From a bacterium (GTDB lineage: Bacteria; Patescibacteriota; Microgenomatia; UBA12405), in assembly GCA_029561175.1 (NCBI GenBank), contig JAKQJL010000034.1, forward strand, positions 1 to 37,145: a stretch of 37,145 bases of DNA. The letters run 5' to 3'. A program made the position numbers and the translations under genes. Positions 3,107 to 22,053 of the stretch are shown here, in pieces; the first letter of the stretch is position 1; every line of letters begins with the position of its first letter. Below the pieces are notes generated by a model. It had not been told where the DNA came from and made no database searches. It saw only the letters and a list, made by a program, of their open reading frames with translations.

Positions 3107-3796
3107 TTAAATTTTTTGAGCAAATACCAATAGTCTTTTCCAATCGGTTCCCAATGGCCAACAAGTTTGCAGAATCACTATTTCTTTATCTGGCTCTTTA
3201 TAATTTAAATATTCAATTTGTGAAGCTTCCACTACTTCAGTTTTATAAACTCGATAATTATGTACTTCTCCCTGATATCTAATTTGAACTTCATCATTCG
3301 TCTTTAATTCTCCCAACAGGTAAAATACCGAGTTCTTCCTTACCATATCAATTCCCTGATCAGTTGAGTGGGCAAAAATATAGGTAGTATGATTTGGTCC
3401 TAATCCTGGAAAATTACTTCCTTTGGCTTGAGCTACCACATTCTCTTTTAAAATCGGTAAATACTCAGTATCTTTAAAAGGATTAATATTGGGAACAATA
3501 TTTGAATATGCCGATATTTTAGGAATAATAATCGAGTATTCTTGGTCATCAAACTCTTTTGTTTCTATATTATTGGGTAATAAAGCAGTTTTTGTTTCAT
3601 ATTTATAAACTACTTTAACCAGTGGGCTGTACAAATAAAATATGTATCCTAAAGAGATTAAAAACAGGCAAGTTCCAAGGTAGAATACAACTTTTCTTAA
3701 CTTGCTAGGGTTATGATAGATAATCCCTTTTTTAGATCTAATTTTAACTTTTCTCGTTTTTGGAGTAACACGAAAAAAGTCTGTAATTATCGACAT
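3107..3796 (-). CDS. sortase family transpeptidase with N-terminal TM segment
   Basis: Sortase motifs: YIFAHSTDQG (catalytic His), VILQTCWP (TLxTC-type Cys), DWKRLLVFA (Arg); one N-terminal hydrophobic segment. Confidence 0.88.
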   Translation of the reverse strand: MSIITDFFRVTPKTRKVKIRSKKGIIYHNPSKLRKVVFYLGTCLFLISLGYIFYLYSPLVKVVYKYETKTALLPNNIETKEFDDQEYSIIIPKISAYSNIVPNINPFKDTEYLPILKENVVAQAKGSNFPGLGPNHTTYIFAHSTDQGIDMVRKNSVFYLLGELKTNDEVQIRYQGEVHNYRVYKTEVVEASQIEYLNYKEPDKEIVILQTCWPLGTDWKRLLVFAQKI

Positions 3797-3854
3797 AATC
3801 TTATTTTATATCCACTTGTTTGACAAATACAAGGCCATACTTTACTATATAACC

Positions 3855-3976
3855 TCATATGACCACAAAATACTTATCTCAAAATCAAAGTAAGTGTTCT
3901 GGTGGCTTCATTATCTGTCTCCCTTAACTATTAAGCTTAAAATACATAGCTTAATCAACTCTCGGGAGCTTTTTTT
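3855..3976 (+). ncRNA. candidate structured leader RNA / attenuator upstream of greA
   Basis: Predicted TSS about 3855. Hairpin A: AATACTTA(3869-3876)/TAAGTGTT(3891-3898) with CCAC(3863-3866)/GTGG(3902-3905). Hairpin B ends in GGGAGC followed by T7. Confidence 0.45.
3919..3976 (+). terminator. intrinsic-terminator-like hairpin plus T7 tract, 12 nt before greA ATG
   Basis: CTCCC(3919-3923)/GGGAG(3964-3968) outer stem, ATTAAGCT(3930-3937)/AGCTTAAT(3948-3955) inner stem, T7 at 3970-3976. Confidence 0.55.
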
Positions 3977-18365: not shown

Positions 18366-18821
18366 ATGGATATTCAAAATTTAGCCACACCAGAGGTAAA
18401 AACAACTAACACAAAATACATCTACTTAATTATTGTTTGTTTGGCGATCGGTTCTGGTTTTTGGTTGTCTAGACTAAGTTTAGGTAAGAAAGAACCCGTT
18501 ACTAGTAATTCTCCTAAAAATACAGAAATTGTCAGTCAAGTAACCAATAAAGATCAAATTCAAGTCGGCAAAACCTATGGCACTGTTGAAGCTCGCTATA
18601 AAGATACCGCTACTGGAGTTTTGGAAGCTGGAAATATTAACGGTGAAGGTACCCATATTTTAGTTCGTGAAGGTGGTCTTTCTCAAAGAGCTTCGTTAAC
18701 TTCGTCTGTTCTTGATCTTGATATGTTCGTTGGTCATAAAATCGAAATCAAAGGCGAAACCAATGCTTCCAACAAAACTTCATGGTTGATGGAGGTTGGA
18801 GTTGTCAAAGTCTTAGAATAA
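18366..18821 (+). CDS. hypothetical membrane-anchored protein preceding ftsE
   Basis: 151 aa, one N-terminal TM segment then a predicted beta-rich C-terminal region. Confidence 0.65.
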   Translation: MDIQNLATPEVKTTNTKYIYLIIVCLAIGSGFWLSRLSLGKKEPVTSNSPKNTEIVSQVTNKDQIQVGKTYGTVEARYKDTATGVLEAGNINGEGTHILVREGGLSQRASLTSSVLDLDMFVGHKIEIKGETNASNKTSWLMEVGVVKVLE

Positions 18822-18824
18822 TCT

Positions 18825-19502
18825 ATGAAAATAGCTTTTAATAATGTTGTCAAAAACTATGGATCAGTCAATGCTCTTAATGGTGTTTCGTTTACCATTA
18901 AACCATCTGAATTTGTTTTTTTAGTTGGTTCTTCTGGAGCTGGCAAATCAACTTTGATCAAACTTTTATTAGCACAAATTAAACCATCATCAGGTGAAAT
19001 TAATATTAACGATCAAGACTTAAATTCTTTTCGAAAAAAAGAGTTAGACGAACATCGTCGCAAAATTGGCGTAATCTTTCAAGATTATCAACTGATTGTC
19101 GATAAAACTATTGAAGAAAATATTGCTTTGGCCCTAGATATTTCAGGCTATCCCCAAAATCAAATAAAATCTCGAATTGACGAAGTAACTACCTTAGTTA
19201 ATCTTCATCACCGACAAAATCAATTCCCATCACAACTATCAGGAGGGGAGTTGCAACGCGCTGCTTTGGCTCGAGCTCTAGCTCCAAATCCAGAAGTAAT
19301 TTTAGCTGATGAACCAACTGGTAATTTGGATAATGAAAATAGTTGGAATCTGTTAAGATTGTTTAAAAAAATCAATCAAAAATTTGGCACGACTATTTTA
19401 ATGACCACTCATAATCAAGATTTCATCGATTCCTTAAAATATCGGACTATTATTATTGATGATGGTTTAATTGTTAAAGATTTACCAACCAAAGAATCAT
19501 GA
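18825..19502 (+). CDS. ftsE: cell division ATP-binding protein FtsE
   Basis: Walker [10 protein letters not shown], signature [15 protein letters not shown], Walker [13 protein letters not shown]; followed by ftsX. Confidence 0.94.
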
Positions 19503-20365
19503 CCGCAAATTCAACTTGGCATCATCTTCGTCGATCACCATTTCAAAGCCTAGCCGCAATTATTGTTATCTATGTTTGTTTTTTGTTCCTTAATTTCTTT
19601 TATCTTTTTAGTTCTGGTGCTTCAAATTTGTTGAAATTTTTAGAAACCAAACCCGAGATCACTATTTATTTAAAGGATGGTTTAGATAAATCGATTGTTG
19701 AAGGACTTCAAAAAGAATTAACAAATTATCCAAGTATTCGTGAAATTAAATTTATTTCCAAAGAAAAAGCCCTAAGTATCTATAAAGAATCCAACAAAGA
19801 CAATCCACTCCTAACCGAAATGGTTACTTCAAGCATTCTCCCAGCCTCATTTGAAGTCTCAACCTCAGATCCAAAAGTCCTCGATCAAATTTATCAAAAC
19901 TTTACTTCAAAAACCAAAGAAATTGATGAAATTATTTATCAAAAAGAAGACATCGAAAAAATTCTCAAATGGACAGCTATTCTCCGAAACATCGGTTTCG
20001 CTATCGCTATTTTGTCTATTATTTTTACTGTCTCCATCGTCAGTACTATTATTGGTATGAAAATAATTTCTAAGAAAGAAGAAATTAAAATTTCAAGATT
20101 ATTAGGCGCTTCGAAAAAATATGTTAAAAGTCCATTTCTTAATGAAGGATCAATTTATGGAATTATTGGAAGCTCACTGTCAAATCTGACTATCTTAGTT
20201 GTTTCTCTTTCTCTTCAATCAAAAATAAATAGCTTTTTTGAGTTAACATTTATCCCCAATGATCCTGTTTTTTATTTAATTAGTTTTTTTATTTCGGTTG
20301 TCTCCGGTTTATTGCTTGGTTTAGTTTCTATCAGTTTGGCTGTTAATCGCTATATCAAATTTTAA
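19499..20365 (+). CDS. ftsX: cell division permease FtsX
   Basis: FtsX fold: N-terminal TM, extracytoplasmic loop (EITIYLKDGLDKSIVEGLQKEL), KISRLLGASKKYVKSPFLNEG; overlaps ftsE by 4 nt. Confidence 0.93.
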   Translation: MTANSTWHHLRRSPFQSLAAIIVIYVCFLFLNFFYLFSSGASNLLKFLETKPEITIYLKDGLDKSIVEGLQKELTNYPSIREIKFISKEKALSIYKESNKDNPLLTEMVTSSILPASFEVSTSDPKVLDQIYQNFTSKTKEIDEIIYQKEDIEKILKWTAILRNIGFAIAILSIIFTVSIVSTIIGMKIISKKEEIKISRLLGASKKYVKSPFLNEGSIYGIIGSSLSNLTILVVSLSLQSKINSFFELTFIPNDPVFYLISFFISVVSGLLLGLVSISLAVNRYIKF

Positions 20366-21445
20366 ATGCGTTTAAAATTATTTTTAATTTTAATCAGTAT
20401 ATTTATTTTTGCCTCTCCCATTAAGGCCACTACTACCGAAGAATTAACCAAACAAATCGAAGAGTACGATAAAAAAATTGTTGATCTAGAAAAAACCAAA
20501 GACTCATTATCAAAACAAATAAAAATACTTAACTCTCAGGTTGAGTTAACTTTACTTAAAATTAATCAAACTCAACTTTCAATCAAAACTCTCGAAAACG
20601 AAATTACGTCACTAAGTTCAATAATTGGTAATCTAGACATTAATCTCAATCAATTGTCTTCAATCTATCTTGCTCAGGTAGTTGAAAATTATAAAATGCA
20701 AAAAAAAGTACCTTTGGTTAGTTTTTTACATTCTAAAAGCTTCAACTCTTTTTTAAATCAGTATAAGTACCATTCAACTCTCCAAAAAAATAATCATCAA
20801 ACTATGGTTGAATTGGAAACAGCTAGAACTAATTATGATATTCAAAAAAATCAGAAGGAATTAAAACAAAAAGAGCTCGAAATTCTTAAAGAAAAGCTCT
20901 CAAGTCAACAATCTAACCTAGATAAACAGAAATCTAATAAAACCAACCTATTGGAAGTAACCAAAAACGATGAATCAAAGTATCAACAATTAAAAAAAGC
21001 CGCTGAAGACGAACTTAGTGCCCTGATTAAAGCAAAATTTGTTGGTAAGCGCGAAGTAAAAAAAGGCGAGCCAATTGGCATTATGGGTAACACTGGTTAT
21101 TCATTTGGTGACCATCTTCATTTTGGTCTCTATAACCTAAAAGAAGCTGAAATTGCTTCTTGGACCTATCAAAACGATATTGATGCTAGTTCATATCTTG
21201 GTGAACATCGCTGGCCAATGGTAAATTATGAAATTACTCAGGGTCGTGGCCATACCAAATATTCTTACCTCTATGCTGATCGTTTCCATCATGGAATTGA
21301 TATGGTCTCGAGCAATAAAACTATTTATGCTGTCGAAGATGGAGTTGCTTACTTCTTCAAAAATCCATCAAGCAGTTTAGGCAACCATGTCAAGTTGTTC
21401 CATTCCGATGGAAAAATGACACTCTACTTACACTTGCAAAATTAG
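20366..21445 (+). CDS. EnvC-like coiled-coil protein with C-terminal M23/LytM domain in permuted order
   Basis: Signal peptide, long coiled coil, then VKKGEPIGIMGNTGYSFGDHLHFGLY followed by FHHGIDMVSSNKTIYAVEDGVAYFF...TLYLHLQN. Confidence 0.9.
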   Translation: MRLKLFLILISIFIFASPIKATTTEELTKQIEEYDKKIVDLEKTKDSLSKQIKILNSQVELTLLKINQTQLSIKTLENEITSLSSIIGNLDINLNQLSSIYLAQVVENYKMQKKVPLVSFLHSKSFNSFLNQYKYHSTLQKNNHQTMVELETARTNYDIQKNQKELKQKELEILKEKLSSQQSNLDKQKSNKTNLLEVTKNDESKYQQLKKAAEDELSALIKAKFVGKREVKKGEPIGIMGNTGYSFGDHLHFGLYNLKEAEIASWTYQNDIDASSYLGEHRWPMVNYEITQGRGHTKYSYLYADRFHHGIDMVSSNKTIYAVEDGVAYFFKNPSSSLGNHVKLFHSDGKMTLYLHLQN

Positions 21446-22053
21446 TAACCTCGAGCTAGTTTTCTTAATCCTAAAGAAGCTAAGGCCATCAAACTACCAA
21501 AAACAGAACCTAATACTAAGATATTGCTTCCAGTATCGGGAATGTTATTACTAGCAATGTAATAGCTAGCTCTATCATTATCGTAAGCATTTTGATTTCT
21601 TACTTCAGCAAAATTAGTTAAAGCTACTGGATTAGTTCCAATTGGGCTATTAACAATTCGACCTCTAATCATCAATACTTTGGTTTCACCAACACCTAAA
21701 CTATCAATAGTAGTAGTAATTCGATTGTTTTTTTGATCAAACTCACCAGGATAATATTGTAAAGATAAATATTTAGGTAAATTATCAGTTACTGTCAGAT
21801 TAGTTAAAACCGAATTACTTCGATTCTCAACCACTAATCTAAACTCAATCCCATCGTTTTCATTAAATACGTAAGTATTTCTGGAAATGTTATCAACAAA
21901 TTCAGTTTGAGCAGTTGATCTTATAGTTTTATCAATAACAACACTATATCTGTTGTTTTGATTATGATATTGTGCCCAAGCTTTTGAGCCGCTATTTAAA
22001 AATAGGGTCATAAATAAGGCACATGTGACTAACGATTTATTTAATTTATTCAT
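21442..22053 (-). CDS. secreted DUF11-like protein with IPDTG sortase-type sorting signal
   Basis: Signal peptide (...AWA|QYHNQ), VVENRSNSVLTNLTVTDNLPKYLSL repeat-like domain, C-terminal IPDTG-hydrophobic-RKLARGY. Confidence 0.8.
   Translation of the reverse strand: MNKLNKSLVTCALFMTLFLNSGSKAWAQYHNQNNRYSVVIDKTIRSTAQTEFVDNISRNTYVFNENDGIEFRLVVENRSNSVLTNLTVTDNLPKYLSLQYYPGEFDQKNNRITTTIDSLGVGETKVLMIRGRIVNSPIGTNPVALTNFAEVRNQNAYDNDRASYYIASNNIPDTGSNILVLGSVFGSLMALASLGLRKLARGY

Follow-up and report, generated by a model that had tools for sequence, protein, structure and literature searches.

A circularly permuted M23 domain in an FtsEX-linked, putative division hydrolase of Patescibacteria

The way in which FtsEX switches peptidoglycan hydrolases is an open question, and the locus analysed here ties to FtsEX a hydrolase of unusual architecture. 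In a 37,145-nucleotide contig of a bacterium from the phylum Patescibacteriota (hereafter the window, that is, the whole stretch of DNA that was analysed), the gene downstream of ftsX encodes a protein in which the two halves of an M23 (LytM) peptidase domain occur in the opposite order. Is this a genuine enzyme, an artefact or a relic, and if an enzyme, what could the rearrangement mean for its control? A first-pass annotation, made from sequence alone, had described an apparently active, circularly permuted M23 hydrolase next to ftsEX and located it at 21035-21445. The adjacency held, the gene lying directly after ftsX, and the quoted sequence matches the DNA exactly; the location is corrected, the gene starting at 20366 and 21035-21445 being its catalytic domain.

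The three genes, all on the forward strand, overlap or abut one another. The ftsE gene, encoding the ABC ATPase of the FtsEX pair (18825..19502; Pfam ABC_tran, E 3.6e-37), overlaps by 4 bases with ftsX (19499..20365; Pfam FtsX_ECD, E 1.4e-15, and FtsX, E 5.3e-10), which encodes the membrane subunit with its extracellular domain, and the hydrolase gene (20366..21445) begins with an ATG immediately behind the ftsX stop codon. The 359 aa product consists of a putative N-terminal signal peptide (residues 1-21; 20366..20428), inferred by eye from MRLKLFLILISIFIFASPIKA, a coiled-coil helical hairpin (residues 24-222; 20435..21031) and the permuted M23 domain. The hairpin, recognized from AlphaFold2 helices at residues 24-112 and 126-222 and from Foldseek matches to EnvC, is the part expected to bind FtsX; there are no binding data. 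Its most conserved stretch, a run of invariant columns in the alignment of relatives with the pattern LL..TKNDE..YQ.L..A..E (residues 195-216; 20948..21013), is a possible hinge, and the AlphaFold2 confidence falls to 59-65 around residues 201-220. The gene immediately upstream of ftsE (18366-18821, forward strand) encodes a small protein with a membrane anchor and no recognized family. On the other side, a convergent gene (21442-22053, reverse strand) overlaps the hydrolase stop codon with its end; its product combines a DUF11 domain with a C-terminal IPDTGSN motif followed by a hydrophobic tail, a weak match to an LPXTG anchor.

The M23 halves are swapped. PF01551 (Peptidase_M23) matches the hydrolase with 61.6 bits (curated cut-off, 28.7), split into two stretches: profile positions 60-90 align at 21047..21139 (V..KGE.IG..GNTGYSFGDHLHFGLY), ahead of positions 1-54, which align at 21281..21442, at a conserved C-terminal position, so that the second half of the domain comes first. 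Between the two matches, a linker of residues 259-287 (21140..21226) connects the former M23 C-terminus to the former N-terminus. In profile coordinates, the collinear order HxxxD, YxH, HxH is absent from the protein, and the best match in a profile search of the PDB, 9gy1, also aligns in two separate segments of opposite order. The source genome encodes two more M23 proteins, both collinear. All five metal-binding or catalytic residues are present and in frame, namely, H250 and H252 in the HLHF motif (21113-21121), H308 (21287-21289) and D312 (21299-21301) in HHGID, and H356 (21431-21433) in YLH; the protein terminates 3 residues past H356 (stop codon, 21443-21445). Thus, the swapped order claimed by the first-pass annotation held, in the form of the two crossed half-profile matches it had expected from HMMER, as did, at the level of these residues, the claim that the domain looks active rather than decayed and differs in this from the degenerate LytM domain of Escherichia coli EnvC; the expected zinc or catalytic positions are all there, with its count of four corrected to five. 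Zinc binding and peptidoglycan cleavage remain inferences, without activity or metal data.

Do the two halves form one fold? AlphaFold2 predicts that the hairpin of the full-length protein leads into a beta domain, and for the isolated 138-residue permuted domain, the model is a single compact domain with a pLDDT of 93 and a pTM of 0.88, values that would be surprising for halves placed independently of each other. A single compact, all-beta-rich domain composed of both halves is accordingly what the model predicts, the geometry of the zinc site being unmeasured; in the absence of a superposition on LytM, the predicted LytM-like fold rests on the sequence profiles and the model confidence. A Foldseek search with the full-length model ranks first the EnvC protein of the Vibrio cholerae FtsE/FtsX/EnvC complex (8tzl) and third E. 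coli EnvC bound to FtsX (6tpi), with RipA, RipC and PcsB lower down. The permuted domain model alone has no PDB match with E below 1; given that Foldseek aligns in sequence order, this null result is uninformative about the fold either way, and although a permuted topology still missing from the PDB would account for it, it proves nothing. A Foldseek match to gp33 of phage P60 was rejected, as this protein lacks the HxH and HxxxD motifs and does not match the M23 profile. None of the outcomes that were named at the outset as refuting a permutation appeared: there is no full collinear M23 match, the modelled halves make one compact domain, and unrelated assemblies share the order, leaving no sign of an assembly rearrangement.

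The extent of that recurrence was traced at several depths. When the window protein was used to scan GTDB genomes, a single-protein search that reaches close relatives only, 13 relatives were returned. The permuted order is found in 8 of these (L001-L007 and L009), including five Shapirobacteria, one Woesebacteria and one Curtissbacteria; L008 is cut by a contig end, and L010-L013 combine the same coiled coil with a terminal C39-like domain instead. Searched with profile A2, which was made from the permuted domain, 382 same-class genomes gave at least roughly 150 whole-length matches, and many other families of the phylum had such matches as well. When a broader profile (A4), built from 33 diverse members, was run against 381 genomes, all from this phylum but from different parts of it, at least 89 had a permuted match of full length, taken as one that covers about positions 8-128 of the 134 in the profile; among the same-class genomes of this sample, about two thirds carry the permuted domain. 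A tblastn search of the window domain against plasmids and phages produced no match. The search for the same order in other FtsEX-linked M23 proteins of Patescibacteria, which the first-pass annotation had proposed, is thereby answered in the positive, and the arrangement is phylum-wide and old rather than local.

For a census, two half-domain HMMs were made from the first set of permuted members, and these identified 93 distinct ORFs with the C-half followed by the N-half along with 30 in the canonical order, most of the latter deliberately fetched as controls. Every one of the 93 contains one C-half and one N-half, which rules out tandem M23 domains trimmed by the search tool, and the gap between the half-profile matches has a median of 26 aa. 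The active site is nearly invariant: the equivalent of H250 is retained in 93 proteins, H252 and H356 in 92 each, D312 in 91 and H308, the first zinc histidine, in 86. The end of the chain is similarly constrained, with the C-terminus located exactly two residues past the YxH histidine in 62 of 93 proteins and 2-6 residues past it in 90. Of the 89 loci whose flanks are long enough to tell, 85 have ftsX upstream of the gene; among the four exceptions, L049 does have ftsX by a separate search, and in L030 and L031, a sister gene encoding the same coiled coil with a C39-like domain intervenes, with ftsX before the sister. Because the same order is present in independent MAGs and in 93 ORFs, chance and misassembly are excluded, whereas decay of the gene is excluded by the relatives, the conserved residues and the intact reading frames. 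The permuted hydrolase is therefore likely to be an old and probably working redesign of a division hydrolase, its activity being inferred. A few lineages may nonetheless be inactive, like EnvC, because the first zinc histidine is missing in six or seven of the 93 proteins, where PGG(I/L)D replaces HxGxD or the region is divergent. In L085, L093, L099, L143, L154, L155 and L147, this histidine is replaced (PGGID/PGGLD, PYAVD, RYAID) or not alignable, and these proteins could be pseudo-enzymes within the family. M23 is a major fold of cell wall hydrolases, and here much of a phylum has kept a permuted form, whose C-terminus stays next to the catalytic histidine with unusual constancy; annotation pipelines see two broken half-domains and may miscall such proteins as fragments.

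What occupies the position behind ftsX elsewhere in the phylum? We fetched 80 ftsX loci, partly picked to avoid genomes already seen, so that the counts are not frequency estimates. Downstream of ftsX, a permuted M23 protein is encoded in 15 loci and a canonical one in 7, and among 46 of the remaining loci, there are matches to CHAP in 16, to C39_2 in 9 and to the PcsB coiled-coil model in 14. This position can be considered an effector slot because the same coiled coil elsewhere bears CHAP or C39 peptidases. We conclude that the FtsEX effector of this phylum is a coiled coil with exchangeable hydrolase heads, the permuted M23 domain being one of four, and that permutation is not required for FtsEX control, given that canonical M23, CHAP and C39 heads occupy the same slot in relatives. 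Some loci depart from the one-effector arrangement. In L030, L031, L196 and L200, tandem effectors follow ftsX, a C39-like coiled-coil protein and then a permuted-M23 one. In L094, a permuted (1303-2439) and a canonical M23 head (adjacent 412-aa ORF), with homologous coiled coils, lie side by side after ftsX, so both forms coexist, which does not show that one made the other. In L124, the permuted M23 domain encoded by a 210-aa ORF near 3263-3892 lacks the long coiled coil, and the ftsX-linked protein that precedes it is of a different type.

The reading that we favour, with a probability of about 0.75, is that the window protein is a secreted, FtsEX-controlled M23 zinc endopeptidase with activity of its own, in which the coiled coil has been spliced into the strand adjacent to the catalytic histidine; cleavage, zinc and FtsEX control are all inferred here. 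In the permutation, the chain has been opened immediately behind the YxH histidine of the active site and the old termini closed by the linker, leaving the new C-terminus 2-3 residues past that histidine. With the chain opened at this point, the expected FtsX-binding coiled coil is fused to a strand next to the active site. ATP cycling by FtsE would move FtsX, the motion of FtsX would move the coiled coil, and this movement would switch the M23 site, which in turn would cut septal peptidoglycan. Since the helix enters the domain at the strand that follows the catalytic histidine in ordinary M23 proteins, the movement could act on the active site with little intervening linker.

A bolder version of this scenario, which we consider possible but less likely than not, takes the permutation itself to be the regulatory device: with the FtsX-driven coiled coil spliced into the strand leading away from the catalytic histidine and the C-terminus set next to it, FtsEX would gate the metallopeptidase directly, without an EnvC-type arm, as part of a very early effector design in Patescibacteria; the mechanical gating is inferred. 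Between the conserved TKNDE..YQ motif of the coiled coil and the catalytic domain, the median distance is 24 aa in the permuted proteins versus 51 aa in canonical M23, the latter value coming from 5 ftsX-linked proteins only, and this leaves little room for a restraining arm the size of that in EnvC. Such a short distance is compatible with direct gating but does not prove it, and a shorter autoinhibitory helix in the groove is possible. With so little room for a full-length arm, and with canonical M23, CHAP or C39 heads in the same slot of relatives, the phylum offers a natural experiment on force transmission by FtsEX.

Several alternatives to an FtsEX-controlled endopeptidase have to be weighed. 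The protein could be a non-catalytic activator akin to EnvC, its permuted LytM domain binding and switching on a separate amidase; the coiled coil and the ftsX linkage are indeed EnvC-like, and in E. coli, division proteins with LytM domains act as activators (PMC7668044). Nevertheless, the catalytic residues that EnvC has lost are kept in the permuted proteins, and Amidase_3 was not found in the source genome, which is only about 83% complete; of the 17 further carriers that were searched, 16 likewise gave no match. With PBP transpeptidases in 18 of 18 carriers versus Amidase_3 in only 1 of 18, there would be little to activate in the 17 carriers without it, and we regard this alternative as very unlikely. 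Alternatively, the halves might pair between chains, in a domain-swapped dimer or a higher assembly, so that activity would require FtsEX-driven oligomerization. The order of the halves would permit head-to-tail swapping, and stoichiometry could matter, considering that one E. coli EnvC binds two FtsX domains (PMC7668044), but the high-confidence AlphaFold2 model is a single compact domain in which one monomer supplies both halves. Although monomer runs cannot exclude swapping, it appears unlikely.

The target, too, might be different, namely, the envelope of a host cell rather than the own septum. Patescibacteria are mostly episymbionts; this lifestyle and the predicted secretion of the protein speak for such a role, whereas the close operon linkage to ftsEX at nearly every locus and the pattern of the effector slot point to division and make a host target quite improbable. 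As for an assembly rearrangement or a decaying gene, nothing beyond the unusual order favours either, and the independent assemblies with the same order, the conserved residues and the intact frames all but exclude both.

How does the favoured endopeptidase compare with known systems? It shares with M23 peptidases of the LytM/lysostaphin type (PF01551) both profile halves, the metal and catalytic residues and a predicted compact domain, and differs from them in the swapped halves and in the chain opening just after the YxH histidine; judged from sequence, none of the four groove loops known from EnpA (PMC8269130) includes this position. With EnvC of E. coli and Vibrio, it shares the putative signal peptide, the FtsX-linked coiled-coil hairpin and a C-terminal LytM/M23 domain, but its catalytic residues are intact, the domain is permuted and the link from hairpin to domain is short; the NCBIfam EnvC equivalog model scores 23.3 bits, below its cut-off of 270. 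FtsX binds E. coli EnvC through the coiled coil, and a restraining arm about 50 residues long masks the inactive LytM domain of EnvC; a comparable helix precedes the CHAP domain of PcsB (PMC7668044). PcsB, CwlO and RipC resemble the window protein in the succession of a coiled coil and a hydrolase that FtsEX would control directly, but carry CHAP or NlpC/P60 cysteine peptidases as opposed to a metallopeptidase; the C-terminal CHAP domain of the PcsB type is absent from the window hydrolase, which has M23 in its place. Permuted members are on record in another peptidoglycan-hydrolase superfamily, NlpC/P60 (LRAT and YaeF types, cited in PMC6403190), which has an unrelated cysteine-peptidase fold. 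In the open-access literature searched, we found neither a natural circular permutation of M23, LytM or lysostaphin nor a paper on an FtsEX-linked permuted hydrolase of Patescibacteria, so the novelty is provisional.

The origin of the permuted domain can be addressed only in part. The first-pass annotation suggested a tandem duplication followed by trimming of both ends, which is a plausible but so far hypothetical route. Trees built from re-ordered domains (119 columns) are weakly resolved. The canonical sequences group together in the tree, apart from one permuted row among them, and when all permuted sequences are constrained to one clade, the resulting tree scores slightly above the unconstrained one and is not rejected (p-AU 0.51). 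A single origin is thus compatible with the data, and independent origins are not excluded. Outside the phylum, M23 motifs in permuted order are also found in a 997-aa virion protein of cyanophage S-TIM5 (AEZ65701; L204:7229-10222), where GDIIGWVGYSGE...HLHMEIR (H538/H540) precedes NHTGVDIA (H591/D595) and IFLAHL (H640). The Pfam M23 match in this protein covers an earlier piece (430-464), and its Foldseek comparison with the permuted-domain model gives a probability of 1.00 and a TMq of 0.53. AEZ65701, which has homologs in S-TIM61 and S-TIM66, might be a permutant that arose independently or an M23 protein with a partial duplication.
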